Of a DNA stretch of 64,000 nucleotides, positions 2,045 through 22,769 are shown in pieces. Both the position numbers and the translations under genes were made by a program. Position 1 is the first letter of the stretch, and each line of letters begins with the position of its first letter. The notes below the pieces were generated by a model, which was not told where the DNA came from, did not search any database, and saw nothing but the letters and a program-made list of their open reading frames with translations. The DNA comes from Sulfurospirillum diekertiae (GTDB lineage Bacteria; Campylobacterota; Campylobacteria; Campylobacterales; Sulfurospirillaceae), in NCBI RefSeq assembly GCF_011769985.2, contig NZ_CP039734.2, positions 248,001 through 312,000 of the forward strand, read 5' to 3'.

Positions 2045-2260
2045 ATGGCTTTATTAGAGGGAACCGTTAAATGGTTTAACAATGAAAAAGGTTTTGGTTT
2101 TATCCAACCAAATGATGGCGGAAAAGATGTATTCGTACATTTTCGTCAAGTTAATAGATCAGGTTATGGTCGTGTTTCTTTGGCAGAAGGCCAAAAAGTT
2201 ACTTATGAACTAGGCGAAGGTCCAAAAGGCCCACAAGCTGAGAACGTAACAGCACTATAA
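2045..2260 (+). CDS. cspA: Cold-shock domain protein (CspA family)
   Basis: This 71-residue protein is one cold-shock domain, a nucleic-acid-binding beta barrel. It carries RNP1 (KGFGFI) and RNP2 (DVFVHF), and begins [15 protein letters not shown], the family hallmark. It probably acts as an RNA chaperone. The ATG follows an AGGAG ribosome site. The gene ends six bases inside the convergent kinase fragment. A GC-rich hairpin followed by T residues just downstream (about 2267-2297) may terminate it. The leader of nearly 190 bases upstream is consistent with the long untranslated leaders of csp genes, but I could not model its fold. Confidence 0.95.
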
Positions 2261-3181
2261 TTCTTCGGGGGAGATTTTCTCCTCCACCTCTTTTTTAAAC
2301 CAATAGCTAAAAACACTTCCTTTTGCTTCTTCTGATTTCACTTCGATCACAATATTATATTTATCACAAATACTTTTGACAATACTTAGACCAATTCCAA
2401 AGCCACCTTTATAGATATCGCCTCGGTAATGACGCTCAAAAACTTTTCCAATCTCTTTAATTCCTACTCCTTGATCTTTGACTTGAAAGAAAAGCTGTTG
2501 ATTTTCTTCTTTGAGTAGGACATGAATAGTGGTTTTAGGTGGAGAATATTTAATCGCATTGGTTACATTGTTATCAATAATGCGTTGAAGTTCAATACGG
2601 TTGATACAGACATACTGGTCAGGATCAATATGTGCGACAATGCTAATCTCTTTTGAAAAGCTCAATGCTTCAAAGTATGCAATACGATCTTCTAAAAATG
2701 TCGAAAAATTGAGCACTTCGGTTGTGTAGGTAATGGTTTTGTTTTTGATGAGGTATTCAAGATCATCATAGAGTGTTGAAAGTGTCGAGAGTGCCGCAAG
2801 GGTTCGACTGAGGCGTTTATCTTTGTATTTTTGTACCAAGCCTTCTATGTTGAGCTGCATAATGCCTAGAGGCGTTTTAAGCTCATGCATCACATCGGTA
2901 AAAAAGAGGTTCATCCGCGTGGACGTTTCGATGTAGGGTTTGAGAAGTAGTTTTAAAAGAAGGTACGAAAAGAGTAACATTCCGACTAAAACAATACCTA
3001 TAATCACTAAAATATCAAAAATAACTTGCGAATGGGAGATCTCTTTTTGCACGATTAAAAACTTTACATGTAAAGCATTGGGTGCAAGAGGCTGTTTATA
3101 AAAAAGAGAAGAATTATTTTTAAAAAACTCATCGTTAAAACTAGGGATAGGCTCTTCGATCAGTGAAAAAACAATAGACAT
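2255..3181 (-). pseudogene. Sensor histidine kinase, 3' fragment (gene split by IS)
   Basis: This is the C-terminal part of a membrane histidine kinase. It holds the second membrane segment, the phosphoacceptor box MHELKTPLG, an N box (IDNNVTNAIKYS) and G boxes (DQGVGIKE and GGFGIGLSIV). The N-terminal part lies beyond an insertion sequence, at 4092-4349. Removing the IS (3176-4091) and one copy of its AAT target duplication rejoins the two parts in frame, so the parent gene was intact before insertion. The first codons of the visible frame come from the IS end. The fragment keeps all catalytic motifs but lost its N-terminal sensor. It is a close paralogue of the kinase at 20743. Confidence 0.85.
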
Positions 3182-3215
3182 CTTGCAAAACTCAAATAAA
3201 AGGCACTAAAAATGC

Positions 3216-3689
3216 TTGGCAAGAGGCATGAAAAAATATGAACAAATGCAAAAGCATAAACCCAAAGATTTTAAGCGCCATATTGGCGTTAATGAAGAGA
3301 CATTTAACGCAATGATAGAGGTGTTTAGGCAATACGATGAGAATCGTAAAAAAGGATTAGGTGTAGGAGGGAGGAGATCTCTTTCACCAGAAAATAAAGT
3401 ACTTTTGATGCTTGGCTATTATCGTGAGTATCGCACCCTTGAACATATTGGATTTGATTATGGTGTGAGTGAATCAACGGCTTCAAGGATTGTATGTGAA
3501 GTAGAAGAAGTGTTGATTAAGTCTGGTAGATTTTCATTGCCAAGCAAGAGAGAACTCTATAAAAGTGATGTTGCCCTCTCTTTTGTTGTCATTGATGCGA
3601 CAGAAACGCCTTGTCAAAGACCCAAAAAAAGCAAAGAGAGTACTACTCAGGTAAGCAAAAGCGTCATACCCTTAAAGGACAGATTGTGA
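3216..3689 (+). CDS. IS transposase, upstream frame (orfA)
   Basis: This is the N-terminal half of the IS5-type transposase, with a helix-turn-helix region (HIGFDYGVSESTASRIV) and the first catalytic aspartate region (VVIDATETPCQRPKK). It opens with TTG at 3216 or, equally plausible, ATG at 3228. The downstream frame is in -1 relative to this one and overlaps it around an A7 run at 3624-3630. That layout suggests a full DDE transposase of about 285 residues made by -1 frameshifting. A plain frameshift mutation cannot be excluded from one copy. Confidence 0.75.
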   Translation: MARGMKKYEQMQKHKPKDFKRHIGVNEETFNAMIEVFRQYDENRKKGLGVGGRRSLSPENKVLLMLGYYREYRTLEHIGFDYGVSESTASRIVCEVEEVLIKSGRFSLPSKRELYKSDVALSFVVIDATETPCQRPKKSKESTTQVSKSVIPLKDRL

Positions 3690-4075
3690 TTGATAAAGAG
3701 GAGAGGATTATGTGTGTGCATACCGCTAAAGGTACGACACATGATTTTAGACTGTTTCAAGAATCTAATCTCCCCTTGATGCCCAAGACCTGTGTTTATG
3801 TTGATTTGGGATATCTGGGTATTGCCAAAGAACATAGCCATTGTCAAATTCCCCATAAAGCCTCCAAACTTCATCCTTTGAGTGAGGAGCAAAAAGAGGA
3901 AAACAGACAAAAAGCAAGTGCTAGAATATGTGTTGAACATGTGAATGCTAAAATCAAAACATTTCAGATACTCACCCAAAAATACAGAAACAGAAGAAAA
4001 CGATTCAATCTACGCTTTAATTTGATATGTGGATTAATCAACTTTGACCGTGGTTTTGCTGTGGAATACAAATGA
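3611..4075 (+). CDS. IS transposase, downstream frame (orfB, DDE domain)
   Basis: This frame continues the transposase: QREYYSGKQKRHTLKGQIV directly follows the DATETPCQRPKK motif of the other frame. It then gives VYVDLGYLGI (second catalytic aspartate) and the C-terminal region with RICVEHVNAKIK (catalytic glutamate). It probably has no start of its own and is expressed as a fusion across the A7 run. It ends 16 bp before the right inverted repeat closes. Confidence 0.75.
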   Translation: MSKTQKKQREYYSGKQKRHTLKGQIVIDKEERIMCVHTAKGTTHDFRLFQESNLPLMPKTCVYVDLGYLGIAKEHSHCQIPHKASKLHPLSEEQKEENRQKASARICVEHVNAKIKTFQILTQKYRNRRKRFNLRFNLICGLINFDRGFAVEYK

Positions 4076-4349
4076 GTTTTGCAAGATGTCTAATGTGGTT
4101 GTTGGCATCTAAAAGAGCGCTTTTAAAGATGATGGAGCGTGGAAACAGAAAGGTTTTTTGCAAAGGAAGAATACTCTGAATGGTTGATTCAATCTCTTTG
4201 GCGTAAGAGCGCAACTGGACTTCTTGGTTGACTTGACTCAGGCGCAACGAAACGGAGAGGTAGTTTAAAATCGGAAAAGAGACCAGTAAAAGGGTAAGAA
4301 GGGTGAGAATAATGGCAAAGATAAACGCATTTTTGGTTTCACTTTGCAA
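4038..4349 (-). pseudogene. Sensor histidine kinase, 5' fragment (gene split by IS)
   Basis: This is the N-terminal fragment of the kinase whose remainder is at 2255-3175. It starts at ATG 4349, overlapping the 3' end of the response-regulator gene, has one membrane segment (about residues 9-30) and the beginning of a short extracytoplasmic region. True kinase sequence stops at 4092; the last codons are IS sequence. With one AAT repeat removed the frame reads NNHI-VFSL straight into the 3' fragment. On its own this fragment has no catalytic domain. Confidence 0.8.
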
Positions 4350-4998
4350 TTTTATATCCTATCCCTTTAGCCGTAATAATAAAATCTTTATCGGTCTTGT
4401 CACGTAGTTTTTTAATGAGCATGCGTATATCGTTTTCGCCCACCTCTTTGCCTTCCCAGACGTATTCATGAATGAGCTCGATGGAGATAAAATTCCCTCT
4501 ATTCTTGACTAAAACAAAAAGAAGTTTTCGTTCATAATTACTCAAATTAACCTGCATCTCTTCAAACCAAAGAGTCTGGTCATTACTGTGGTAAGAAAAG
4601 CCATGTGTGAGTGGTATGACATCAAGTGTGCTATGAAGGTGGTAACTTTTAAGCGTTTGCGAAACACGGTATTGAAGCTCTTTGAGTGAAAAAGGTTTGC
4701 GTAAATAGTCATTGCACCCCAGCTCATAACCTAAAGAGAGGTTGTTAATGTCGGTGAGTGAGGTAATAAAAATGATGGGTAGATCAAGTTTGGCTTTACG
4801 AATCTCTTTTAAAATTTCATACCCATCCATATGAGGAACACGTATGTCTAAAAGGGCCAGATGGTACTGTTTTTCAAAAAGTGCATCAAGGGCGAGAAGT
4901 CCATCTTCAAAGGCATCCACATCGTAGCCCATCTCCTCTAGAGAATCTTTAATACTCTCATTATAAGTGTGGTCGTCTTCAAGAAGTAAAATCTTCAT
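4339..4998 (-). CDS. OmpR-family response regulator
   Basis: The 219-residue protein has an N-terminal receiver domain (acidic pocket LLLEDD, phosphoacceptor Asp51 in LLDIRVP, Lys in LRKPFSLKEL) and a C-terminal winged-helix DNA-binding domain (ELIHEYVWEGKEV to ITAKGIGYKI). It lies between the Cache-type sensor gene (4-bp overlap upstream) and the split kinase gene (overlap downstream), so the three were one operon. A close paralogue is at 20088. It may bind the 11-bp-period repeats before tsdA and psrA. With its kinase disrupted it is probably orphaned or depends on the kinase of the second cassette. Confidence 0.93.
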   Translation of the reverse strand: MKILLLEDDHTYNESIKDSLEEMGYDVDAFEDGLLALDALFEKQYHLALLDIRVPHMDGYEILKEIRKAKLDLPIIFITSLTDINNLSLGYELGCNDYLRKPFSLKELQYRVSQTLKSYHLHSTLDVIPLTHGFSYHSNDQTLWFEEMQVNLSNYERKLLFVLVKNRGNFISIELIHEYVWEGKEVGENDIRMLIKKLRDKTDKDFIITAKGIGYKIAK

Positions 4999-5942
4999 CG
5001 AATGAGTACCTCACGTTTTTCGGAGTTTTGAATCGCAGGCTCTAGCGTTTTTACATGTAAAGGTGTTGTATAGGGTGTCAGAGAAGCACGAAGGAGCAAA
5101 GACTCCTTCAGTAAAGCTTCCCCAAACCAGATACCAATATAGCCAACCTGTTTGGCTTCGATGTCAAAGAGGGGTGTAAAGCCAAAGAGTACACCATTTT
5201 GTCTTGCAAAGCCTTTCTCTAAAGTTGAGGTAGAGATGATGGTACTTAAGGCATTGATGCATCCGCTAGGGCAGCTATTGCTCACAATGACATAGTTATC
5301 AATTTGATCCAGTTCTTTCATCCATTCACCAACTTCTAAAAGTTCTTTATCCATCAAAACAACGAAATTAATCTTTTTTGCATTGAGCTTTTGGGCAACT
5401 TCATCAAAACTAATGATAATCTCTAATGAACCTATAAACGTCTCTTTCGCATAAATAGGGCACAGTGCTTTAATGTTCAAACGTTTACCAAGTTCAATGG
5501 CAACGAGAGGCATTTTGGTTTGTTGAAGTAGTGCTATCCCTTTGCGAAACGTTGAAAGGTCATCTCCATAATCATCAAAATCCCAACTTCGCACATAGGC
5601 TTTTGCATCTTTAGTATGAAGTTGTACTTCAAGATTTTCAATTTGGAGATACTGTTTTATTTTAGCAATTTCGCTCTGTAATGTTTCAAAAAGTAACGCC
5701 CTGTCGTTGCTGAGGTAACCCTCTTTAAGTGTTTCATTTTGAGAGAGCATCAGTGCTATACTTAAAGCAAGTTGTTTTTCATTTGAAATGAGCTCTTGAG
5801 TGAGTCCTAGAACACTCTCCACACTGTTTTTAGCATCTTCGATATAGAGGTTATGGTTAGCGCGATAGATCAAAAAGCCAAGGCTGAGTACTAACGCGAA
5901 AAAGAGTCCAAAAAAGAGTGCAAAGATGCGAAAATTTTTGAT
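4995..5942 (-). CDS. Membrane-anchored Cache-type sensor protein, apparent ATC start
   Basis: It is a single extracytoplasmic sensor domain on one N-terminal membrane anchor, with no kinase or methyl-accepting part. The motif RSWDFDDYGDDLSTFRKG and the PIYAKETFIGSLEI strand resemble double-Cache (dCache_3-like) domains. The gene has no ATG, GTG or TTG before the anchor: the first TTG (5873) would delete it. An ATC codon at 5942 sits 7 bases after AAAGGA and aligns with the ATG of the paralogue at 21921, so I place the start there. Either a rare start codon is used or the ATG was mutated. It is first in the operon with the regulator and kinase, divergent from tsdA, and probably passes a periplasmic signal to the kinase (inference). 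Confidence 0.75.
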   Translation of the reverse strand: MKNFRIFALFFGLFFALVLSLGFLIYRANHNLYIEDAKNSVESVLGLTQELISNEKQLALSIALMLSQNETLKEGYLSNDRALLFETLQSEIAKIKQYLQIENLEVQLHTKDAKAYVRSWDFDDYGDDLSTFRKGIALLQQTKMPLVAIELGKRLNIKALCPIYAKETFIGSLEIIISFDEVAQKLNAKKINFVVLMDKELLEVGEWMKELDQIDNYVIVSNSCPSGCINALSTIISTSTLEKGFARQNGVLFGFTPLFDIEAKQVGYIGIWFGEALLKESLLLRASLTPYTTPLHVKTLEPAIQNSEKREVLIR

Positions 5943-5999
5943 GACAGATCCTTTTTAATAGAAACCATTGCCAAATTATACCTTAAAAGTACAATGGAG

Positions 6000-6037
6000 A
6001 AATTGACGATAAATTGACATGAGAAGCGTATGATAAT
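6000..6037 (+). promoter_or_regulatory. tsdA promoter with 11-bp-period direct repeat
   Basis: Two copies of AAATTGAC (6000-6007 and 6011-6018) lie 11 bp apart, the spacing of OmpR-family operators. They are followed by a TATGATAAT -10-like segment (6029-6037), placing the repeats over the -35 region. The psrA upstream region carries a similar pair, AATTTACATA (9242-9262). The site lies in the divergent space between the sensor cassette and tsdA. Confidence 0.5.
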
Positions 6038-6065
6038 CCCATGAATTATTCTAAAGGAGGCTTTT

Positions 6066-7070
6066 ATGAAGGTAGATTTGATGCTAAAATTGGCATTGGT
6101 CGCATCCTGTGCAAGCGGGCTTTTTGCATTTGATGTCGGTGAACTTGCGAAACGAGGTGACCAAGGTTTTAAGCCAGTGGTGGTCAAGGATTGGCAAGCG
6201 CCTGATGAAAAAACGATTCCCAACAATCAATTTGGCAATGATGTGCGCTATGGTAAAGCATTAGTGCAAGAGACCTATAAGTACATAGGTCCTGAAGTTG
6301 CCGATAAAAAAATGCGATATGCTGGTAATAACCTTGCGTGTAATAGCTGTCACTTGGATGCAGGAACTAAAAAATACTCTGCAGGATTTATGGGTGTATT
6401 TGCTTCCTTTCCTCAATACAGTGCACGTGAAAATGCTGTCGGTACGATCGAAGAGCGCATCAACGGCTGTATGCAACGCAGTATGAATGGTAAACCATTG
6501 CCTGAAAGCTCTAAAGAAATGAAAGCAATAGTAACCTATATGTACTGGCTTGGGCAAGGTATTTCTGTAGGTGCGAAAGTGGAAGGAAGCTCTTTAACCA
6601 AAGTCGATCGTAAAATGATTATGAGTCGTGCAGCCGATCCAATTGCGGGTGAAAAAGTGTACAAAGAGATGTGTGCATCCTGTCATGGGGACAATGGGCA
6701 AGGTGTTAAACGTGAAGGCAAAGCGATGGGCTATGAGTTTCCACCACTGTGGGGCAAAGATACCTACAACACGGGTGCTGGTATGTTTAGACTGATTAAA
6801 GCAGCGGACTGGATTGTGGCAAATATGCCTTTAGGTGCAACCAGCGATGCTAAAATTTTGAGCGACGCTCAAGCCTATGATGTCGCAGCGTATATCAACA
6901 ATTACGACAAAGAACGCCCAATCAAAGCCAATAAAGACAAAGACTTCCCTGATCTTAAAGTCAAAGCCGCCGATAGCGATATTGGACCTTATGATGATAA
7001 CAAAACACGTCTTCAACATAAAGTGGGCCCTTATCAAGGCATTATTATCCCTGCCAAAAAAGCAGAGTAA
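6066..7070 (+). CDS. tsdA: Dihaem cytochrome c, thiosulfate dehydrogenase / tetrathionate reductase (TsdA)
   Basis: The 334-residue protein starts with a Sec signal peptide ending about residue 21. It has two haem c sites: CNSCH (Cys92-His96) and CASCH (Cys203-His207). The stretch NNLACNSCHLDAGT and the RINGCMQRSMNGK motif are typical of TsdA; Cys135 in the latter matches the cysteine axial haem ligand of that family. TsdA interconverts thiosulfate and tetrathionate in the periplasm; in Campylobacter jejuni it is biased toward tetrathionate reduction. A strong AAAGGAGG precedes the ATG. It is probably transcribed alone and controlled by the repeats at 6000. Direction of reaction here is inference. 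Confidence 0.9.
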   Translation: MKVDLMLKLALVASCASGLFAFDVGELAKRGDQGFKPVVVKDWQAPDEKTIPNNQFGNDVRYGKALVQETYKYIGPEVADKKMRYAGNNLACNSCHLDAGTKKYSAGFMGVFASFPQYSARENAVGTIEERINGCMQRSMNGKPLPESSKEMKAIVTYMYWLGQGISVGAKVEGSSLTKVDRKMIMSRAADPIAGEKVYKEMCASCHGDNGQGVKREGKAMGYEFPPLWGKDTYNTGAGMFRLIKAADWIVANMPLGATSDAKILSDAQAYDVAAYINNYDKERPIKANKDKDFPDLKVKAADSDIGPYDDNKTRLQHKVGPYQGIIIPAKKAE

Positions 7071-7077
7071 GTACCCT

Positions 7078-7099
7078 GTGGCAAACTTCGGTTTGCCAC
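7078..7099 (+). terminator. Hairpin with TTCG loop after tsdA
   Basis: GTGGCAAAC and GTTTGCCAC form a perfect 9-bp stem around a TTCG tetraloop, eight bases after the tsdA stop. The T tract is weak (TACTTCATT), so it could terminate or simply protect the mRNA end. Confidence 0.6.
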
Positions 7100-7205
7100 T
7101 ACTTCATTAAAGATTCTCTCAAAAGCACCTCACCCTTTTACATGTAATGATTTTTTGTTTATACTATTACTTTATAATAAACCTATTCCATTTAAAAGAG
7201 ATCAC

Positions 7206-7553
7206 ATGACTAAAGAAAAACTGATTTCCGATACGAAAATCTTGCATCGCTTTATTCAGCTGCATTGCGATAAAAAGCATCAAGATGTTTCTAAAAAAAA
7301 AGGAGTCTTAGAAGTAAGTTTTAAAGAAGAGTCTTTATGTGAATTGCCATACCATATCTGTGAAGAGTGTGAAACATTGTTTGTTTATGGCTATGGAAAG
7401 CTTAAAAATTGTCCACATGAGCATAAACCAAGCTGTCGTAAGTGTCCTGATCCGTGTTATGAAAAACCGATGTGGAAAAAGATGGCACAAGTGATGAGTT
7501 ACAGCGGTATGCAATTAGGTCTTACAAAACTGCGTAAACTTTTTTCCAAATAA
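7206..7553 (+). CDS. YgbA_NO family protein (nitrous oxide-stimulated promoter)
   Basis: The 115-residue protein has a C-terminal cysteine cluster (CEECETLFVYGYGKLKNC, then CRKCPDPCYEKP) that matches the YgbA_NO family, named for a nitrosative-stress-induced gene. The cysteines probably bind a metal or an iron-sulfur cluster (inference). The start is the ATG at 7206 after AAGAG; an upstream in-frame start at 7155 lacks a ribosome site. The stop overlaps the ATG of the next gene (TAATG), so the two are translationally coupled. A TTTACATGTAA palindrome lies upstream at 7138. Confidence 0.8.
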   Translation: MTKEKLISDTKILHRFIQLHCDKKHQDVSKKKGVLEVSFKEESLCELPYHICEECETLFVYGYGKLKNCPHEHKPSCRKCPDPCYEKPMWKKMAQVMSYSGMQLGLTKLRKLFSK

Positions 7554-9223
7554 TGCTGCCATATCTTAGCCATAAAGCGCACATGCAACGCGTGTATGGC
7601 GAAGCGCTTTTTAGTGTCCCTGTCAATGTGGAGTTTGGCTGTCCTAACCGCGAACGCGATGGTAGTGGTGGCTGTTCCTTTTGTCCCGAACACGGTGCTC
7701 GCGCAGCTCAAATTGCGGATGCAAAGAGCGTGGAGGAGCAGATACAAAAAGCGCTCTCCTTTGCCAAAAGACGCTACAACGCTAAAGCGTTTGCACTTTA
7801 CATTCAAGCCTATACCGGAACATTTGCTTCCCTTATCAAACAAAAAGAGACATATGAAAAACTGCTTGCTCTTTACCCCTTTCGCGCCTTACATATAGGC
7901 ACCAGACCTGATTGTTTGAGCGAATCGACACTGGGCTACTTGGCAGAACTGAATCAAAAAATTGATGTCGTAGTGGAACTGGGCGTGCAAAGCTTACACG
8001 ATGCGAGTTTAAAACGCATGAACCGAGGGCATGATGCCGTCTGTTCACTGGCAGCCATCAAACGTTTACATGGTAAAGGTTTAAAAGTTTATGCGCATGT
8101 GATTATCGGATTGCCCAATGAAACACCACAGATGTGGAAAGAGAGCGTGCAAGGCTTGGTGAATGCGGGCATTGATGGGATTAAATTTCACAATCTGCAC
8201 ATCATTCAAAATACTGACTTGGCACGTGAGTTTTCACGCACTCCTTTTCCTCTTTTAAGTGAATACGAATACGCCGAAGCGCTGATTGAGCTGTTGCGTT
8301 ATGTGCCCTCGCACATTCCTATTTTACGTCTTGCCACCGATACGCCTGAGCGTGAGCTGATCGCTCCCAAATGGCATATGGCCAAAGGGCAATTTGGTGA
8401 GTATGTGGCACAAACAATGCGTTACCGTGGCATCAGACAGGGCAACTTAGTTGAAAAAGAGCTCGAAGAAAGTGATGCAATACCACAAAAAATAAGCCTC
8501 AAAGATGGAAGTACGACTTTATGGAATGAAATCTACCGTGATTACTACCATCCTAAAGCAGGAGCAATCCGTCAAGCCCAAGAGCTCTTTCTGGCACACT
8601 CCAACCTCAAAGAACGTCTTGAAAAAAGTGGTGTCACGCTTTTGGAGATCGGTTTTGGCATGGGGTACAACACATTTATGGCGACACAATTAGCACAAAC
8701 AGTGGCTCAAAACCGTTTACATGTAAAAGCGATTGACCAAGATCGTATGCTCTTACAAAAGGCTTCTGTTGTCATTTCAGATACTTTACATGTAAAGATG
8801 TTGGACGCTCTTTTTACATGTAAACGTTACGATGATGATTTTGCCAAAGTTGAGTTTCTAAACGCCGAAGCACGCTATGCATTGCGTCTTTTAGACGAGC
8901 AATTTGATGTCATCTTTCTCGATCCCTTTATCGAGAGCAATAACGCTTCGCTTGTCACGTTAGATTTTTTCCAACACTTGCGAAAATTTCTCAAACCTGA
9001 TGGCGTTTTAGTCGCCTCAACCGCTTTACAGGTAAGCCAAGTGGGGCTTAACCTTGCTGGCTTTGATGTGATGGTCATCAAAGATGCCACGAGCGACATT
9101 CAAGGTGTTGTCGCCACACTTTCATCGTCACACATTTTACATGTAAAAGAGCCCTACCGTGATATCTACGGCATATATAACGATAAGCAAATCGAAACAC
9201 TGCATCAAAAATCGTCTAACTAA
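7553..9223 (+). CDS. Radical SAM protein (YhcC/TIGR01212-like) fused to a class I methyltransferase
   Basis: Residues 1 to about 310 match YhcC-type radical SAM proteins: the cluster cysteines are Cys30, Cys41 and Cys44 in GCPNRERDGSGGCSFC, followed by YIQAYTGTF, VELGVQS and HVIIGLPNET. From about residue 325 a second domain begins, with the SAM-binding motif LEIGFGMGYNTF and FLDPF, as in MnmC-like methyltransferases (Methyltransf_30). The union in one 556-residue chain suggests two steps on one substrate, perhaps RNA (inference). The substrate is unknown. The methyltransferase half contains four TTTACATGTAAA palindromes, read as LHVK or FTCK. Confidence 0.8.
   Translation: MLPYLSHKAHMQRVYGEALFSVPVNVEFGCPNRERDGSGGCSFCPEHGARAAQIADAKSVEEQIQKALSFAKRRYNAKAFALYIQAYTGTFASLIKQKETYEKLLALYPFRALHIGTRPDCLSESTLGYLAELNQKIDVVVELGVQSLHDASLKRMNRGHDAVCSLAAIKRLHGKGLKVYAHVIIGLPNETPQMWKESVQGLVNAGIDGIKFHNLHIIQNTDLAREFSRTPFPLLSEYEYAEALIELLRYVPSHIPILRLATDTPERELIAPKWHMAKGQFGEYVAQTMRYRGIRQGNLVEKELEESDAIPQKISLKDGSTTLWNEIYRDYYHPKAGAIRQAQELFLAHSNLKERLEKSGVTLLEIGFGMGYNTFMATQLAQTVAQNRLHVKAIDQDRMLLQKASVVISDTLHVKMLDALFTCKRYDDDFAKVEFLNAEARYALRLLDEQFDVIFLDPFIESNNASLVTLDFFQHLRKFLKPDGVLVASTALQVSQVGLNLAGFDVMVIKDATSDIQGVVATLSSSHILHVKEPYRDIYGIYNDKQIETLHQKSSN
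8716..9147. repeat. Cluster of four TTTACATGTAAA palindromes inside a gene
   Basis: Perfect 12-bp palindromes lie at 8716-8727, 8785-8796, 8813-8824 and 9136-9147, all inside the methyltransferase half of the fusion gene. They are read in two different frames (LHVK, and FTCK for the third). This is the densest group of a motif found about 35 times in the window; see findings. Confidence 0.85.
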
Positions 9224-9241
9224 ATCCAAAATAAACTTCAT

Positions 9242-9262
9242 AATTTACATAAAATTTACATA
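9242..9262 (+). promoter_or_regulatory. psrA upstream direct repeat (possible OmpR-type operator)
   Basis: Two exact copies of AATTTACATA start at 9242 and 9253, an 11-bp period. They resemble the AAATTGACAT repeats before tsdA. They lie about 47 bases before the psrA ATG. A response regulator encoded in the window is the natural candidate binder (inference). Confidence 0.5.
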
Positions 9263-9308
9263 GGAGGACTAAGATAGTCATACTTAAATCTTAGATAAAG
9301 GATAAAAG

Positions 9309-11600
9309 ATGACTCAAATGCTTAGCCGAAGAGGATTTTTAAAACTCTCTTCTACCGCTGCTGCAGTTGCTAGTCTCTCAAGTATCCCAGGAACACTGGG
9401 TGCAATGGAAGAGAGTCAAAAGCACTACAAAGGCAATGCCAAATTTACACCCAGTATTTGTGAGATGTGTACAAGTTCGTGTACCATTGAAGCACGCGTG
9501 GAAGATGGTAAAGGTGTATTTATTCGTGGCAATCCAGCTGATAAAGGAAGAGGCGGAAAAGTCTGTGCTCGTGGTGGTTCAGGGTTCAATCAACTTTACG
9601 ATCCACAACGATTAGTCCATCCTATTATGCGTGTGGGTGAGCGAGGTGAAGGAAAGTGGAAAGTGGTCAGTTGGGACGAAGCTTACACTTTTATAGCCAA
9701 AAAATTGGATGAAATCAAACAAAAACATGGTGCGCATACCGTAGCGTTTACGGCACGTAGTGGTTGGAACAAAACATGGTTTCATAATTTAGCACAAGCG
9801 TACGGTTCTCCAAACCTTTTTGGACATGAAGCAACCTGTCCATTGGCGTACGATTTGGCGATGGATGATATTTTCGAAAACGGTGTTAGCCGTGATTTTG
9901 CCAAAGCAAAATACATCATTAACCCAAGCCATAACGTCTTTGAAGGTATTGTTATCTCCTATGCACGTCAATATATGGAAGCATTGGAACACGGTGCAAA
10001 AGTGATTTCACTCGATCCAAGACTTTCAACGATGGCTGCAAAAGCGAGCGAATGGCATCCGATTAGACCAGGCCATGACCTTCCGTTTGTCCTTGCTTTC
10101 ATTCATACGCTCATTAACGAAAACCTTTACAATAAAAAATTCGTTGAGAAATACTGCGAAGGGTTTGATGAACTTAAAGCGTCTGTAGCTGAGTATACCC
10201 CTGAGAAAATGGCGTTGGAGTGTGATATATCTGCTGATACGATCAAACGCATGGCACGCGAATTTGCCAAAGCAGCACCCAAAGCGATTTTTGATTTCTG
10301 TCACAGAGTCACCTTGACACCTCAAGAGTTAGAACTTCGTCGTGCGATTATGATGTGTAACGTTTTAGTCGGTGCCGTAGAGCAAGAGGGTGGTTACTAT
10401 CTGAACAAAGGTGCTGGTTTTTACAATAAATTTTTAGGCGAAGGCGATGCTAAAGCGCCGGTACTTAAAAAGCCAAAAATTCCTGCCTATCCAAAAGTAG
10501 AATTTCCAAGAATTGATCGTATTGGTGAAAAAGACAGTGAATTTTTCTTGGCCAAAAAAGGCAATGGCATCGTTACATTGATTCCTAAAGCGACGTTAGA
10601 AGATCTTCCAGGAGTTCCTTATCGACTTCATGGCTGGTTTATCGCACGTAACAATCCTGTCATGACACAGACCAATACCGAAACAGTCATTAAAGCCATT
10701 AAAGCGATGGATTTGGTTGTGGTTATGGATATTCAAGTCTCTGATACTGCTTGGTATGCGGACATTGTCCTTCCTGATACCACTTACTTAGAGAGAGATG
10801 AAGAGTTCAATGCAGGTGGAGGCAAAAATCCAAGTTATGATGTCGGTCGACAAAAAGTGGTTGAGCCTATCGGCGAATCACGTCCTGGTTGGCGAGTTGC
10901 CAAAGAGTTAGCGGAAAAAATGGGTTTAAGTGCTTATTTCCCTTACAAAGACATTGAAGATTATCGTTTACAACAAGTGGGTGATAATATCGATCTTTTG
11001 GCAAAACTTAAAGCAACAGGTATGGCAAGTTTTGGTGTGCCTCTTCTACTTCAAGATAAAAAAAGTGTTGCAGAGTTTGTGAAAAAGTATCCGAGTGCGG
11101 CCAGCAAAGTGAATGAAGAAGGTACGATTGATTTCCCACATAAGATCAAGCTGTTTAGCCCAGAACTCGAAACGGTTTCTAAAAAAGGTGCTTTGAGTTA
11201 CGAGCCTTACAAATACAAAGAAGCCGATGAGCTCTATTTTATCAATGGAAAATCAGCGGTTCGTACCAACGGACATAATGGTAACAACCTTTGGCTCAAT
11301 AATCTCTGTGATGATGCAGCGGTATGGATTCACCCCAAAACGGCGGAACGCCTTGGCATCAAAAATGGTGATAAAATCGAAGTCTCTAACAAATATGCGA
11401 CACAAAAAGGCAAAGCGCTTGTCACGAAAGGCGTACGTGAAGACACCGTATTTGCTTACTTTGGGTTTGGTCACATCAGTAAAGAGCTTAAACGAGCTTA
11501 TGGTAAAGGTGTTAACAGCAATACGCTTTATTCGCCTTTGGTATCGCCAAATTCAGGTATGAACCTGCATGTGGTTGGCGTCAAAGTCAAAAAAGCGTAA
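9309..11600 (+). CDS. psrA: Molybdopterin oxidoreductase, polysulfide/thiosulfate reductase catalytic subunit
   Basis: The 763-residue protein is a DMSO-reductase-family catalytic subunit with a twin-arginine signal ([10 protein letters not shown]). An N-terminal [4Fe-4S] site is given by CEMCTSSC and the later Cys in GKVCARG. The cysteine in [10 protein letters not shown] is the likely molybdenum ligand, as in PsrA and PhsA. It works outside the membrane with the next two gene products, reducing polysulfide or thiosulfate with electrons from menaquinol. Sequence alone does not separate Psr from Phs; tsdA nearby favours thiosulfate as a substrate (inference). Tetrathionate reductase is less likely. 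Confidence 0.9.
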
Positions 11601-11615
11601 GGGGAGGAAAGAACA

Positions 11616-12188
11616 ATGGCAAAAAAATATGGAATGATCCACGATAATAATCTTTGTATCGGTTGTCAAGCATGCAGTATTGCGTGCAGGTCTGAAAATG
11701 AAATACCCGAATCCGTGTACCGTTTACAGGTTTGGGTTAAAGAAGAAGAGTATCCAAATGGCACGATTGGCTATGAGTATCACCGCCAATCCTGTGTTCA
11801 ATGTGAAAATACTCCTTGTGTGGGTGTCTGCCCTACCAAAGCTTCACATATCACGGAAGAGGGCATTGTGTTAGTGGATGTTGATTTGTGTGTAGGTTGT
11901 TTGTACTGTGTTGCAGCATGCCCTTACCAAGCACGTTATGTTCATCCTGTCACCAAAGCACCTGATAAATGTACGTTCTGTCATGATACACGCTTGGCTC
12001 GTGGTGAAGAACCAGCCTGTGTAACTGTATGTCCAACAGACGCGCTTATTTTTGGTGACTTGAACGATCCGAAAAGTAAGATCAACCAAGCGCTATCATC
12101 TCGTGTCACGTACCGTGAAAAAGAAAAATTGGGAACGAACCCAAAAATGTTTATTGTACCTAACCATAAAGGAGGGATCAACTCATGA
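11616..12188 (+). CDS. psrB: Four-cluster ferredoxin subunit of Psr/Phs reductase
   Basis: The 190-residue protein has four cysteine groups of the 4Fe-4S type: CIGCQACSIAC, CVQCENTPCVGVCP, CVGCLYCVAACP and CTFCHDTRLARGEEPACVTVCP. It carries electrons between the quinol-oxidising membrane subunit and the molybdenum subunit. The gene starts 15 bases after psrA with AGGGGAGG before the ATG, and overlaps psrC by four bases. It has no signal peptide and is presumably exported with the Tat-dependent partner. Confidence 0.93.
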   Translation: MAKKYGMIHDNNLCIGCQACSIACRSENEIPESVYRLQVWVKEEEYPNGTIGYEYHRQSCVQCENTPCVGVCPTKASHITEEGIVLVDVDLCVGCLYCVAACPYQARYVHPVTKAPDKCTFCHDTRLARGEEPACVTVCPTDALIFGDLNDPKSKINQALSSRVTYREKEKLGTNPKMFIVPNHKGGINS

Positions 12189-13138
12189 ACCAAATCTGGG
12201 GCTCAATAGAGCAATATAACACAGTCGTATGGCATTGGCCGATTGCGGTCTATCTTTTCCTTGCAGGTCTCTCTGCGGGAGCGATTATTTCGGCAATCGT
12301 GATTAAATGGATGAAAGGCAATGATGTCTCTCCAAGCGATGGTATTATTAAAGCGGGTTCTATTTTAGCGCCGGTGACCATTGGTGCAGGTTTGCTCCTT
12401 TTGATTACCGATCTTACGCGTCCGCTTCATTTCTGGAAATTGTTAATTCACTATAACTTTGGCTCTGTGATGACACTTGGTGTTTTGGCACTGTTTGCGT
12501 ATTTCCCCGTTGTTATTCTCTTTTTCATGGGTGTCTTTAAAAAAGAGCTTTTTGAAACGGGACCACTTCAATTTTTAGCACCGCTTGCCAATCTTGCATT
12601 GGCATACGCTAAATTGATCGAAAGTGTGACACTCATTTTAGCTGTAGGTGTTGGTGCCTATACTGGTTTCTTGCTTTCAGCAATGAACAGTTATCCCTTG
12701 TTTAATACCCCTGTTTTACCAGCGCTTTTCTTGGTATCAGGTGTCTCAGCAGGTATTTCTGCCAACTTGGTTGTTGGACTTCTTTTCTTTAAGAGCAGTA
12801 CCAAAGATGGCAACGTCAGTTACCTTCATGGGTTAGATGTCAAAGTGAGTTTTGTCGAACTTTTCTTCTTATTCATTCTTTTTGTGGGAATGTTTTACCA
12901 AGGAGGATCTGCTGCGCATGTCGCACATGCAGCGCTTAGTACCGGTGGACTTTCAACATTGCTTTGGTTGGGTGTTATCGGTTTAGGGTTGGTGTTGCCT
13001 ATTGGACTTAATTTTGCATTACCTCATGGGGTGAAACACTCTCATGGTTTTGTAATCTTCAATTCACTGATCGTTCTTATTGGTGTTATGTCACTTCGTT
13101 ACTATATTCTCTACGCAGGTCAAGTCTTCGTAGGATAA
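12185..13138 (+). CDS. psrC: NrfD/PsrC-type membrane anchor and quinol-oxidising subunit
   Basis: The 317-residue, highly hydrophobic protein belongs to the NrfD/PsrC family, expected to have about eight membrane helices and a quinone site. It begins WGSIEQYNTVVWHWPIAVYLFLAGLSAGA, typical of PsrC. Its ATG overlaps the psrB stop (ATGA). It closes the psrABC operon, as a terminator follows at 13155. The paralogue at 19110 keeps the same order. Confidence 0.92.
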   Translation: MNQIWGSIEQYNTVVWHWPIAVYLFLAGLSAGAIISAIVIKWMKGNDVSPSDGIIKAGSILAPVTIGAGLLLLITDLTRPLHFWKLLIHYNFGSVMTLGVLALFAYFPVVILFFMGVFKKELFETGPLQFLAPLANLALAYAKLIESVTLILAVGVGAYTGFLLSAMNSYPLFNTPVLPALFLVSGVSAGISANLVVGLLFFKSSTKDGNVSYLHGLDVKVSFVELFFLFILFVGMFYQGGSAAHVAHAALSTGGLSTLLWLGVIGLGLVLPIGLNFALPHGVKHSHGFVIFNSLIVLIGVMSLRYYILYAGQVFVG

Positions 13139-16253: not shown

Positions 16254-18537
16254 GTGGATTACATTCAAGCCAGAAGAGACTTTTTAAAAGTTGCAACAAC
16301 CAGCGCAACGGCGAGTATTTTCTTGCCTGGAAGCTTAGGTGCGCTTGGCGAAGTAGCCCTCAAAAGTGAAGATAAATTTATTCGTTCCATTTGTGAAATG
16401 TGCAGTAGCCGTTGCCCTATGGAAGCACGCGTGATTAATGGTAAAACCGTCTTGCTCCAAGGTAACGCTTTTGTAAAAGAGATGGGAACGAGTTTATGTG
16501 CCAAAGGCGTTGCAGGAGCCTCTCAGCTTTATGATCCCCAAAGACTTGTCACGCCATTGATTCGCGTAGGCAAACGGGGTGAAAACAAATGGAAAGAAGC
16601 CAGTTGGGAGGAGGCACTGAGCCTTATTGCCGGAAAGCTCAGTGCGCTTAAAGAGCGTTATGGTGCTCGTAGCGTAATCTTTTCTGCTAAAACAGGGGAG
16701 CAGTACGATCTTCTCTGCTCTTTTGCATCGGCATTTGGCTCGCCCAATATTTTTTCACATTGGAGTTCCTGTCCGATTGCGATTGAAAGTGCTTTTAAAC
16801 AGACGTTCGGTGAAAAACTGCATCGTGATTTTGAAAATGCTACCTATATTTTGAATTTTGGACATAATCTTTTTGAGGGACTCGATATTCCTCTCACCAA
16901 AGCAATGGCACAATTTTCTGCCAATCCTTCTAAAAAATTGGTTGTTTTAGATCCTCGTTTTTCCATTATTGCGTCAAAAGCCAACGAATGGTATCCCATT
17001 AAGCCAGGAAGTGATTTAGCGTTTGTCCTTTCTCTTTTACATGTATGGATTAGGGATGGCAAATACAATAAAAATTTTGTTGAGCAGTATACGATTGGTT
17101 TTGAATTGGTACTCTCTGTGAAAGAAACAACACCTCAGTGGCAGCAGCCACTTACGGGCATTGATGCCAAAGTCGTTGAACGTCTTGCGGCAGAAATTTA
17201 TGAAGCTTCTCCTAAATGCATTATTGATTGGGGACATAAAGCAAACCACTACTAAGGCAGAATATCAAAGAACCCGTGCTATTTTAATGGCCAATATTTT
17301 GATGGGTAATGTTGAAAAAGAGGGTGGAATTTACTTTGCAAAAATAGCTGAACGGGTTAATGCTCTTGCTAAAGAAGACATTGTCCCAGAACTGGATAAT
17401 CCTTATCCAAGACCTTTAGTGAATGAGCAACGCATTGATCAAGCAGGTGAAATGGGAGCTTTACGCTTTGTCTCAAAAAGGCATGGTTCTTTGACTGCCA
17501 TTCCTGAAGCGATTATAACTCAAACGCCTTATGAGATAAAAGGATGGTTTCTAACCCGACATAACCCTTTAATGACGGTAGCAAATCCTCAAAAAATGAA
17601 AGAGGCAATGGAGCAGTTAGAGTTTATTGTCGTGAATGACATTTATCTCTCCGATACAGCGATGATGGCAGATGTGGTTTTACCTGAAGTAACCTATTTA
17701 GAGAGGGATGAAGGTATTAGTAAAAATGCGTATAAAAGCCCTTATTATACAATGCGTAATCGTATCGTAGAGCCATTGCATCACAATAAAAGTGCTATAG
17801 AAATTATCCGTAATCTTGCAGAACGCATGGGGCTTGGAAGTTATTATCCATGGAAAAGTGTTCCTGAACTACGAGTCTATCAAGCCAAAGGAAATGACGT
17901 TTTACTCGAAACCTTGCTTAAAAGAGGGGCTGCAACATTTGATGTACCTCCTCTTTTGGCACTTGAGCCCACGTTTGTGGAGCATTTTTGTGAGAGGTAT
18001 CCTCAAAGTCGCATCTGGTTAGATAAGCAAGGCACGTTTAGTCATCTTCTCCAAAAGCTTAAAACACCTTCGGGTAAGATAGAAATTTATTGTGAAGAGG
18101 TTGAAAAATTATTTAAAGGATATGGCGTTCCAAGTAACGTAGATATGGATGTCAAACAAGGATTCCCCTATGTTTTAACCAGTGGGAAAAGTGCTGTTCA
18201 TACCAATGGACACACGCAGAATATTCCTTATTTGCACATGCTACTTTCAACAAATCCAATTTGGATGCATCCTTCCACAGCAAAAGTTCATGGACTTAAA
18301 ATGGGTGATACCTTTTATCTTGAAAACGGTATTTCCAAAGAGAAGGCAACGGTCTTTATTACAGAAGGTATTCGCCCTGATACACTGTTTACGTACATGG
18401 GCTTTGGGCACGATGCTCCTGCTCTTAAGCGTACACATGGAAAAGGGATCAACTCTTCAAAGCTTTTATCGTTAGAGAGTGCCACACTTTGTGGGGCAAT
18501 GATCACCAATGTTGGTGTCAACATTATCAAAATATAG
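16254..18537 (+). pseudogene. Second psrA-like molybdoenzyme gene, broken by a one-base frameshift
   Basis: The gene encodes a PsrA paralogue with a twin-arginine signal (RRDFLK), a 4Fe-4S site (CEMCSSRC and SLCAKG) and a likely Mo-ligand Cys in HWSSCPIA. The first frame runs from GTG 16254 and stops at 17255 after GHKANHY. The second continues to 18537. Removing one A from the AAA at 17243-17245 restores GHKATTTKAEYQRTRAI, which aligns with the intact paralogue. No slippery sequence is present, so this looks like a mutation or an assembly error, not programmed shifting. If real, the downstream subunits lack their catalytic partner. Outside the shift the gene is well preserved. Confidence 0.85.
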
Positions 18538-20087: not shown

Positions 20088-20756
20088 ATGAAGATTTTAC
20101 TCTTAGAAGATGACTATAACTACAATGAGAGCATTAAAGAGTATTTAGAGCTCTTAGGGTATGAAGTCGATGCCTTTTTTGATGGGGAGAGTGCTTTAGA
20201 TGCGATTATGCAGAAGTGCTATTATCTCTTTTTACTGGATGTAAAAGTGCCGAAGCTGAATGGGCATGAGTTGATTAAATACATCAAAGAGGCAAATATT
20301 ACGACGCCTATTATCATCATGACGTCATTGGTAGATATTGATAACATGGAAATTGGGTATCAGCTTGGTTGTAATGACTATCTTAAAAAACCGTTTGAGC
20401 TGAAAGAGCTTGAACTGCGGGTGAAAGAGCTGATTAAAAAGCATTATCAAACAAGTACTGCAGGGGAATTTAGGCTGAGTTGTGGATGTGTTTTTAATTT
20501 TGAATCGGGTGAGCTTAAAAAAAAGGATACAACAGTTTCACTTACCTCAAAAGAGCTTGATTTGGTGCGCTTTTTAATTCGCCGTAAAAATACATTTTGT
20601 GACATTGAACTCATTCGTGAAAATGTGTGGGAAGGTAAAGAAATTAGTTATGCGGATATTCGTATGTATATTAGAAAAATAAGGCTCAAAGTCGATGAAG
20701 AAGAGTTTATCAAATCATCTCGTGGGTTAGGATATCGCATCGATGTTCTCTCTTAA
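20088..20756 (+). CDS. OmpR-family response regulator of the second Psr locus
   Basis: This 222-residue receiver plus winged-helix regulator closely parallels the one at 4339: LLLEDDYNYNESIKEYLE, Asp51 in LLDVKVPKLNG, LKKPFELKELE, and a DNA-binding part ending in SSRGLGYRI. AAGGAAAAGGT before the ATG gives a ribosome site. It overlaps the kinase gene by 14 bases. Its position after psrABC2 suggests that it autoregulates and controls this operon (inference). Confidence 0.93.
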   Translation: MKILLLEDDYNYNESIKEYLELLGYEVDAFFDGESALDAIMQKCYYLFLLDVKVPKLNGHELIKYIKEANITTPIIIMTSLVDIDNMEIGYQLGCNDYLKKPFELKELELRVKELIKKHYQTSTAGEFRLSCGCVFNFESGELKKKDTTVSLTSKELDLVRFLIRRKNTFCDIELIRENVWEGKEISYADIRMYIRKIRLKVDEEEFIKSSRGLGYRIDVLS

Positions 20757-21924
20757 TCCCTTTCGTTCGGTTTTAGTCTATACGCTTATTGTTATGGCGC
20801 TGTTTTGTGTGCCCAGTTACTTTGCAATTCAAAGTACCATCATGGAAGAGAAGTATAAAGCAACGCAAGAGATTTTAGAGTGGGTCGATGCCCATGAAAA
20901 GAGTATTTTTGAAAAAGAGCGCTTTGAAATTCCAAGAAGTGTGCGCTTTCATATTAATATTTATGATGAAACACAGCAACTCCTCTACAAAGGTATTCAA
21001 GCACATCTTACTCATAGCAATTTTAAAGTACATGTTGCTTATCCTTTTTTATATTATCAAAAAGAGATTCAAAAAGGGAGTGATGTTTTTTACCTTGTCG
21101 TAGAGCTTCAGCTTAACTATGCCAAAATTATTTTTATCGCAACGATGCTTTTTTTTATTGTACTTTTTTTAGTCTATCTGATGAGCAATATTTTTGTTCA
21201 TTCCAGTATTTATCCTTATAAAAAGATGCAACGTTATGTGAATGACTTTTTTAATGATTCAATGCATGAACTCAAAACACCTCTAGGGGTTATTAATATT
21301 AATGTGGAGTTACTTTCAAGTTATGTGACGTCTTCTAAACATTTGCAACGTATTAAAGCAGCTACAAAACAGATGCAAATGACGTATGAAGATGTGGAGT
21401 ATTATATTAAGCATAAAAAGGTAACGTACAATAAAGAACCTGTCAATCTTTCTGAGTATTTAAATGCGCGTATTGCTTTTTTTGAAGATATTTCTGTTGC
21501 GAAGTCGATCAGTTTGGAGCATGACGTTATGCCAAATCTGATGATCTATATCAGCAAAGTAGAACTTCAGCGCATCATTGACAATACTCTCTCTAATGCC
21601 ATTAAATACTCTTTTTTTCAAGGTAAAGTAGAGATCAAACTCTATCTAAAAGATGAAGAACAGTGTGTCCTCAGTTTTCAGGATTATGGTCAGGGCATTA
21701 AAGATCTTTACAAAGTCTTTCAGCGTTTTGAGCGCGAAGATTCTGTTCAAGGTGGCTTTGGGTTAGGGCTTAATATTGTACAAAATATTTGTAATAAAAA
21801 TGACATTGACATTAACATCGAATCGTATGAAAACAAGGGTTCATGTTTTACCTATATCTTTAAACTTGATAAAAAGAAGCTTTTAGATGGTGTGGATGAT
21901 GCAGAAATAAAGGGTGAACGATGA
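20743..21924 (+). CDS. Membrane sensor histidine kinase of the second Psr locus
   Basis: The 393-residue kinase has two membrane segments (about residues 9-29 and 126-148) enclosing a roughly 95-residue extracytoplasmic domain. The H box follows (MHELKTPLG, His175), then an N box (IDNTLSNAIKYS) and G boxes (DYGQGIKD, GGFGLGLNIV). It is the intact counterpart of the IS-split kinase at 2255-4349. Flanked by the regulator and a Cache-type sensor in overlapping frames, it probably receives its signal through that separate sensor. Confidence 0.93.
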   Translation: MFSLNPFRSVLVYTLIVMALFCVPSYFAIQSTIMEEKYKATQEILEWVDAHEKSIFEKERFEIPRSVRFHINIYDETQQLLYKGIQAHLTHSNFKVHVAYPFLYYQKEIQKGSDVFYLVVELQLNYAKIIFIATMLFFIVLFLVYLMSNIFVHSSIYPYKKMQRYVNDFFNDSMHELKTPLGVININVELLSSYVTSSKHLQRIKAATKQMQMTYEDVEYYIKHKKVTYNKEPVNLSEYLNARIAFFEDISVAKSISLEHDVMPNLMIYISKVELQRIIDNTLSNAIKYSFFQGKVEIKLYLKDEEQCVLSFQDYGQGIKDLYKVFQRFEREDSVQGGFGLGLNIVQNICNKNDIDINIESYENKGSCFTYIFKLDKKKLLDGVDDAEIKGER

Positions 21925-22769
21925 AAGAAAAACGGTTTTTTCTCAGTGCCGCACTGATGCTCTTTTTTGGGCTTATTATTCTCTTCTTATACAATAAATC
22001 AATTTCGTATGAAGAGGAAGAGACGCTTAAAAAACAGATGGATGCACTTTTGTTGACGTTGCATAATAAAATTGCGGAGACCACCAAGGTTTCACTGGCA
22101 AGTTCGGTGATTTTAGCGAAAAGTCCCAATGTTGTTGCCTGCCTAAGTGAACAAAATCGAGAGGACTGTTTGCAGTATCTGCTTGAAATTAGAGATAGTA
22201 TGGCACTGGCAGAGATTTTTGATAATGCAAGAATACACCTCCATACCAAAGATTTTAAAAGCTTTATTCGCCTTTGGGATTATAACAATCACAACAATGA
22301 TGACTTAAGTACGTTTCGCCATGCACTCGAAAAAATAAAGCTGAGCAAACACCCGATGCAAGGTGTTGAAATTGGGCGACATGGTATGTTTATGCGCGCC
22401 ATCGCTCCTGTTTTTAAAAAAGATGAGTATGTGGGAACCATTGAAACGGTTGTTGATTTTAAAGATTTAAATGCGTATTTTAAAAAAGATGGTGTGGAGT
22501 TTTATGTATTGATGAAAAATGAGTATTTATCGATTGCAAATGCGGCATCTTACGGGGAAAAGCTGATGCTCGATAACTATACGATTGTCAACCAAGAAGC
22601 CAATGGACTAAATTTTATCAAAGAGATTAATTTTCAAGGTACAGGTTATCTCAAAAAGGGAGATAATTATGTTCTTTATACACCCATTGTCGATATTAAC
22701 GGTGAACATATAGGCTTTTTCGTGTTGACATGGAGCGAGAGCTTATCTCTGGCATCTTTTAAAGGATAA
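21921..22769 (+). CDS. Membrane-anchored Cache-type sensor protein of the second Psr locus
   Basis: The 282-residue protein has one N-terminal membrane anchor (about residues 7-25) and one extracytoplasmic domain, with no output domain. The motif RLWDYNNHNNDDLSTFRHAL and the PVFKKDEYVGTIETVVDF strand match its paralogue at 4995 and dCache_3-like sensors. It overlaps the kinase gene (ATGA) and ends 11 bp inside the convergent radical SAM gene. Its order after the kinase differs from the first cassette, where the sensor comes first. Confidence 0.88.
   Translation: MKEKRFFLSAALMLFFGLIILFLYNKSISYEEEETLKKQMDALLLTLHNKIAETTKVSLASSVILAKSPNVVACLSEQNREDCLQYLLEIRDSMALAEIFDNARIHLHTKDFKSFIRLWDYNNHNNDDLSTFRHALEKIKLSKHPMQGVEIGRHGMFMRAIAPVFKKDEYVGTIETVVDFKDLNAYFKKDGVEFYVLMKNEYLSIANAASYGEKLMLDNYTIVNQEANGLNFIKEINFQGTGYLKKGDNYVLYTPIVDINGEHIGFFVLTWSESLSLASFKG

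Follow-up and report, generated by a model that had tools for sequence, protein, structure and literature searches.

The genome of Sulfurospirillum diekertiae contains a stretch of 64,000 nucleotides (positions 248,001 to 312,000 of contig NZ_CP039734.2, hereafter the window) that holds two genes for enzymes of sulfur-compound metabolism, tsdA and psrA, each preceded by a pair of direct repeats with an 11-bp period. Are these pairs the sites of a single regulator that joins the two genes in one regulon, or does each gene answer to a regulator of its own? A sequence-only reading of the window had favored the former, placing tetrathionate/thiosulfate conversion and reduction together under one of the regulators encoded at 4339 and 20088. 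Our analysis supports a link of the repeats to both of these OmpR-family response regulators, RR1 (4339-4998, minus strand) and RR2 (20088-20756, plus strand), but the idea of one shared regulon is not borne out by the half-site sequences, the regulator clades and the phyletic distribution. On comparative sequence grounds the most likely arrangement is instead one of two dedicated paralogous circuits, with RR1 acting on tsdA, and RR2 on psrA and a chemoreceptor gene.

Direct reading of the tsdA promoter recovers AAATTGAC at 6000-6007 and again at 6011-6018, and that of the psrA promoter AATTTACATA at 9242-9251 and again at 9253-9262, with the positions and period exactly as first noticed. In half-site notation the tsdA operator is TTGACG-ATAAA-TTGACA (TTGACGATAAATTGACA, 6003-6019, plus strand), with G at the third position of each half-site, and the psrA operator is TTTACA-TAAAA-TTTACA (TTTACATAAAATTTACA, 9244-9260, plus strand), with T at that position; in both the half-sites are 11 bp apart. 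An element absent from the earlier reading is a candidate -10 hexamer 9 nt past the second half-site of both promoters, namely TATGAT of tsdA (6029-6034) and TAAGAT of psrA (9270-9275), both on the plus strand. The TTKACR-N5-TTKACR pair, TTKACRNNNNNTTKACR, occurs in the window at 6003 and 9244 and nowhere else, against a mean of 0.28 over 100 window shuffles; two pairs turned up in 3 of the shuffles. When TAWSAT is required 9 nt downstream, the exact matches in the window are again the tsdA and psrA sites only, and 4 matches with up to two mismatches compare with 0.25 expected. A search of the whole 2.78-Mb genome with the repeat, which had been proposed as a check, returned exact matches to TTKACR-N5-TTKACR-N9-TAWSAT at these same two sites alone, with about 0.02 expected from base composition and none found for the reversed pattern. 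These patterns were derived from the tsdA and psrA sites themselves, and their weight lies in the scarcity of other matches and in conservation elsewhere. Searches at three mismatches gave 11 matches versus 7 for the reversed control, and such loose matches, one of which precedes an HlyD-like gene at G000:C1:2550961, carry no weight.

Across 24 sampled genomes of the genus, tsdA is universal, and the TTGAC box with its -10 precedes it in 22 of them (17 without mismatch and 5 with one). The same two genomes that lack this box, G021 and G022, also lack RR1, their best matches being 41 and 42% identical, and RR1 orthologues of at least 71% identity are present in the other 22. Orthologues of psrA were found in 20 genomes and the TTTAC box precedes the gene in all 20, with one mismatch in G020; the G012 box was found at a contig end, on the contig with tsdA, and presumably stands before psrA. 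RR2 orthologues were recovered from 19 genomes, and not found in G013, G015, G019, G021 and G022. Genus-wide, exact three-part matches occur only at tsdA and psrA. When the upstream regions of the orthologues were aligned on the box, the half-sites reached 1.71-2.00 bits per column in both tsdA (22 rows) and psrA (18 rows), versus 0.80-0.84 in the upstream flank and 0.85-1.26 in the spacer. TAWSAT stands at the 9-nt spacing in every one of the 22 box-carrying tsdA promoters, and TAAGAT in all 18 aligned psrA promoters. This psrA alignment omits L057, one of two psrA copies of G020 (its sequence is of low quality and its box has an insertion), as well as G012 and G015, in which the gene start lies outside the psrA locus retrieved and the boxes were seen in the genus-wide pattern search. 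The repeats are thus conserved in the orthologous promoters, and this conservation, together with the 11-bp geometry, supports the earlier proposal that they are OmpR-type direct-repeat operators. The remark that no such pair precedes the second psr operon also holds: the window pattern search found none before psr2A (16254-18537, plus strand), which encodes a second PsrA-like subunit, and in five related loci neither a pair nor the best 11-bp repeat upstream was conserved. This genome has a frameshift in psr2A, for which a sequencing error is possible, and the gene is intact in G004, a genome of the same species.

What then distinguishes the two boxes? Both repeats have G as the third half-site base in all 22 tsdA boxes, and both have T in all 18 psrA boxes read. 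The boxes and regulators also part company in both directions. G013 and G019 (the latter 77% complete) keep RR1 and the TTGAC box of tsdA, and searches for psrA and RR2 in these two genomes found neither. Conversely, G105, from another family of the same order, has a single locus in which psrABC stands behind a TTTAC box and is immediately followed by genes for an RR2-type regulator (48% identical) and a kinase, and none of its four regulator matches is of RR1 grade; G092 shows this same locus, but with the regulator frame broken. Likewise, G250, from another genus of the same family, encodes an RR2 orthologue (75%) downstream of psrABC, and its psrA is preceded by a psrA-type box that is one base off the pattern. 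In a tree of 50 regulators, the 22 RR1 proteins form a separate clade and the psr-linked regulators of G105 and G250 group with RR2 (89/95); the tree has long branches (G177, L208, L214 and G105), and the placement of G105 is only moderately sure. The recognition helix reads KK[LIV]RDK in 22 of 22 RR1 proteins and RK.RLK in all 17 RR2 proteins read, this count and the tree both omitting the RR2 of G018, whose start motif was missed by the script, and the partial RR2 of G020. Taken together, the half-site base fixed per gene, the two-way distribution, the separate clades and the class-specific helices favor two dedicated circuits.

Searches with the box alone, TTKACRNWWRATTKACR, brought out a third site in this genome besides those of tsdA and psrA, placed 36 bp before the start of a gene for a methyl-accepting chemotaxis protein (G000:C1:1720930). 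Orthologues of this chemoreceptor (at least 51% identical) were found in 16 of the 24 genomes; all 16 have RR2 (partial in G020), and all 16 carry a T-type pair before the chemoreceptor gene, the first half-site being weaker in three. Over the genus the box-only pattern gave 56 matches versus 5 for the reversed control: 48 at tsdA, psrA or the chemoreceptor gene, 5 before Rieske/cytochrome bc1 genes and 3 elsewhere. Matches set aside were one in G018:C7, which lies at the end of another open reading frame, and that of G021/G022, which overlaps the start of a primase-like gene.

Beyond the genus, the exact three-part pattern was found in 24 of 248 genomes of the order, comprising 13 of 14 sampled members of the genus and 11 of 234 others. 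Ten of these 11 have a gene for a response regulator (E-value against RR2 of at most 1e-20) no more than 6 kb from a box, with 0.68 expected, and counted by genus the linkage holds in 5 of 6. In five genomes of one other genus, the box stands directly between a sensor/response regulator/kinase trio and soxXYZAB. G216, the only one of these five to be scanned for families, has a sensor that passes the dCache_3 cut-off and SoxX, Y, Z, A and B proteins that pass the NCBIfam cut-offs; the trio sensor of G165 falls just below the dCache_3 cut-off (24.0 of 25.7 bits). Further boxes occur in two of the five sox-locus genomes, separated from the regulator by about 10 kb or more, and the distant box of G216 precedes a DUF302 gene that is followed by genes for an Fe-S protein, a membrane protein and a twin-arginine enzyme. 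The regulator of G177 probably belongs to another subfamily, being 32% identical and encoded beside a Spy-like gene. Relatives of tsdA outside the genus (L233, L235, L236, L237, L239 and L240) showed no TTKAC-N6-TTKAC pair in the sequence examined. In G250 a TsdA-like cytochrome (35%) is encoded directly before a sensor/response regulator/kinase trio (L285:9371-11275), and its promoter holds a different 11-bp repeat, GTTATTTT; this single case is possibly one of co-divergence of regulator and operator.

The genes around the two boxes provide the setting for a mechanism. The tsdA product (6066-7070, plus strand) is a di-haem cytochrome c of the thiosulfate dehydrogenase/tetrathionate reductase type, which has the SoxA/TsdA cytochrome c domain (Pfam SoxA-TsdA_cyt-c) and the second cytochrome c domain (Cytochrom_C) of the TsdA/SoxA cytochromes; it stays below the NCBIfam SoxA equivalog cut-off (54 of 110 bits). 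Upstream of and divergent from tsdA are, on the minus strand, genes for sensor1 (4995-5951, start codon uncertain), a membrane protein that has a dCache_3 sensory domain but lacks a kinase domain, RR1, and the histidine kinase HK1, whose gene is now in two parts (N-terminal 4092-4349; C-terminal 2255-3175, with HisKA and HATPase_c). A conserved AATTATACC in the tsdA upstream alignment suggests a candidate -10 for this divergent operon (TATAAT, 5975-5980, minus strand). The other box precedes, all on the plus strand, psrA/phsA for the molybdopterin catalytic subunit (9309-11600), a gene for a psrB-like Fe-S subunit (11616-12188) and one for a psrC-like membrane subunit of the NrfD family (12185-13138). 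The psrA product passes the equivalog NF012032, named thiosulfate reductase PhsA in NCBIfam, with 1106 bits versus a cut-off of 694. RR2 and its partner histidine kinase HK2 (20743-21924) come after the second psr operon together with sensor2 (21921-22769), all on the plus strand, the last being another dCache_3 membrane protein without a kinase domain. Both regulators score above gathering for the receiver (Response_reg) and Trans_reg_C domains (88.5 and 47.5 bits in RR1; 79.9 and 44.8 bits in RR2), and neither reaches a named-equivalog cut-off (PhoB, CpxR, TorR and others) among the 25 NCBIfam models listed, the best such score for RR1 being 126 bits versus a cut-off of 279.

From the sites, their geometry, conservation and distribution, and the regulator clades, we infer binding, activation, the pairing of regulator with box, and the signals. 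The 11-bp direct repeats lie over the -35 region in the manner of OmpR/PhoB operators, and they are probably sites at which regulators of this type, assigned to RR1 and RR2 by distribution, activate their own promoters in two paralogous circuits. Two copies of the regulator would sit head to tail on the two TTKACR half-sites, one helical turn apart; to judge by the geometry, the dimer would cover the -35 position, replace the -35 contact, and lead RNA polymerase to the -10 that starts 9 nt past the second half-site. Circuit 1 (sensor1, RR1 and HK1; 2255-5951) would act on the TTGAC box of tsdA, and circuit 2 (RR2, HK2 and sensor2; 20088-22769) on the TTTAC box of psrABC and on the chemoreceptor gene elsewhere in the genome, with one half-site base chiefly telling them apart. 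In each circuit the dCache_3 membrane protein, separate from the kinase, is envisaged to respond to a sulfur oxyanion by driving the kinase. The enzymes controlled suggest tetrathionate or thiosulfate as the signal of circuit 1, and thiosulfate or polysulfide as that of circuit 2.

Several observations weigh against this arrangement. Genomes of one genus are related, and the counts across the 24 are not independent. All psrA genomes of the genus also have RR1, so that on co-occurrence alone RR1 may act at psrA in them too. G015, an assembly 88% complete in 480 contigs, has psrA with its box, and no RR2 was found there. The chemoreceptor promoters keep the pair with a -10 that varies and is not conserved. 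TTGAC-type pairs precede Rieske/cytochrome bc1 genes in 5 of the 24 genomes (G003, G008, G010, G014 and G016; loci L264, L276, L282, L283 and L284), about 106 bp upstream of the genes and with a different spacing to the -10; these may be another target of circuit 1 or sites of another regulator that reads the same half-site. Outside the genus, the 6-kb limit for linkage was chosen after the loci had been seen.

One alternative is a single regulon, in which RR1 or RR2 alone would serve both boxes and the G/T difference would only tune affinity. The shared geometry, the near identity of the second repeats and the constant company of RR1 with psrA in the genus suit this explanation; we nevertheless consider it unlikely, as the tsdA box persists where RR2 was not found (G013 and G019), G105 has a psrA-type box and no RR1-grade match, the half-site base is fixed per gene, and the recognition helices differ. 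The pathway runs in sequence from tetrathionate through thiosulfate to sulfide, and tetrathionate and thiosulfate respiration could be induced together if RR1 and RR2 each preferred one box and overlapped on the other. Half-sites with a single base of difference would allow this, as would the DIRM that most rows of RR1 and RR2 share in the recognition helix, but the strict class-specific conservation of that base argues for insulation, and such cross-regulation appears less probable still than a single regulon. Two further explanations were rejected. TTGACA is the sigma-70 -35 consensus, and the repeats might accordingly be -35-like promoter elements (TTGACA/TTTACA) instead of regulator sites; however, a -35 would stand about 17 nt from the -10, and the second repeat, at 9 nt, is too close, the first repeat stopping 20 nt short of the -10. 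In addition, G021 and G022 lack both the tsdA pair and RR1, and plain promoter elements are very improbable. Chance similarity could draw on the shuffled windows that hold two pairs and on the inflation of TTTACAT half-sites in the genus by a frequent palindrome, TTTACATGTAAA, but a footprint conserved in 22 genomes at tsdA and 20 at psrA reduces its probability to almost nothing.

Circuit 1 is altered in the present strain. An insertion sequence at 3176-4091 splits the HK1 gene; it has 19-bp terminal inverted repeats, an ATT target duplication and an HTH_Tnp_4 transposase, and G004 shows the empty site. Among the 22 genomes with RR1 the insertion is confined to this one, and the kinase open reading frame is intact in the other 21, including G004. 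Because the kinase gene is interrupted, circuit 1 is probably disabled and not signal-responsive in this strain, which makes the strain a natural test.

Two features of the window stand apart from the circuits. One is a gene for a small protein of the YgbA_NO family (nitrous-oxide-stimulated promoter family) at 7155-7553, between tsdA and a radical-SAM gene. The other is the palindrome itself, TTTACATGTAAA, with 26 window matches at up to one mismatch versus 0.38 expected (for example at 5050-5061, 8716-8727, 8785-8796, 8813-8824 and 9136-9147). There are 791 exact copies in this genome, 14 to 792 per genome in the 24 genomes of the genus (only 14 in G009), and 0 to 2 per genome in 57 other sampled genomes of the order; 14 of the 16 exact window copies lie in coding sequence, 11 of those in one frame. 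The pattern is reminiscent of highly iterated palindromes or of an uptake sequence, and one literature search with its letters turned up no paper concerning this genus.

Two-component activators with direct-repeat operators are a known kind of system. On the pho box, PhoB uses 11-bp direct repeats that replace the -35 and end about 10 nt before the -10, a geometry like the present one, but half-site sequence, signal and partner proteins differ. DccRS of Campylobacter jejuni, also an OmpR-family system of the Campylobacterota, has TTCAC-type direct repeats; its TTNAC-like half-sites and similar period are alike, and the central base C and the regulon differ. A closer parallel is PceP/PceS (TCS2) of organohalide-respiring Sulfurospirillum, where the OmpR-family PceP binds, in electrophoretic mobility shift assays, CTATA repeats of 11-bp period that overlap the -35 (PMC7755780). 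It shares with the present circuits the genus, the regulator family and the short direct repeats over the -35, and natural mutants have transposase insertions in the system, as HK1 does here. It differs in the half-site, CTATW, bound two periods apart as CTATW-N17-CTATW, in its signal, PCE, and in its kinase PceS, which has a sensory domain of its own, with no separate dCache_3 gene described in the accessible part of that report (PMC7755780). The boxes here, TTKACR-N5-TTKACR, fall outside the CTATW-N17-CTATW definition of the PceP regulon. RsrS-RsrR of Acidithiobacillus caldus is encoded with genes of the tetrathionate pathway and activates them, tetrathionate sensing having been proposed; the site AACACCTGTTACACCTGTT is reported to be an inverted repeat upstream of the promoter, and organism and enzymes differ from those considered here (PMC5093147). 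Within the same phylum, PsrR of Wolinella succinogenes controls a complex of the PsrABC type, but it belongs to the AraC family and is not a response regulator (PMC6682613). The literature searched, some of it accessible only in part, yielded no report that places tsdA, psr/phs or sox of the Campylobacterota under a named response regulator; the review consulted gives AraC-type PsrR for psr (PMC6682613). What is new within that literature is that such systems are assigned to tsdA, psr and sox, and that their dCache sensor is detached.

A tentative generalization, which we hold to be somewhat short of an even chance, is that these circuits represent a Campylobacterota-wide family of three-gene sulfur-anion systems, each with a detached dCache_3 sensor, an OmpR-type regulator and a kinase. 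They would share one operator-promoter geometry, each would serve a sulfur enzyme system of its own (tsdA, psr/phs or sox, with a chemoreceptor in some species), and within one cell a single base of the half-site, recognized by a diverged recognition helix, would be what mainly keeps them apart. The sites are short enough for a direct swap test, and the natural kinase mutant in the present strain stands alongside the intact same-species genome G004. If true, these proposals would give three sulfur pathways a definite regulator, with its operator and a likely signal, and would offer a clean case in which a single operator base may insulate paralogous regulators from each other.

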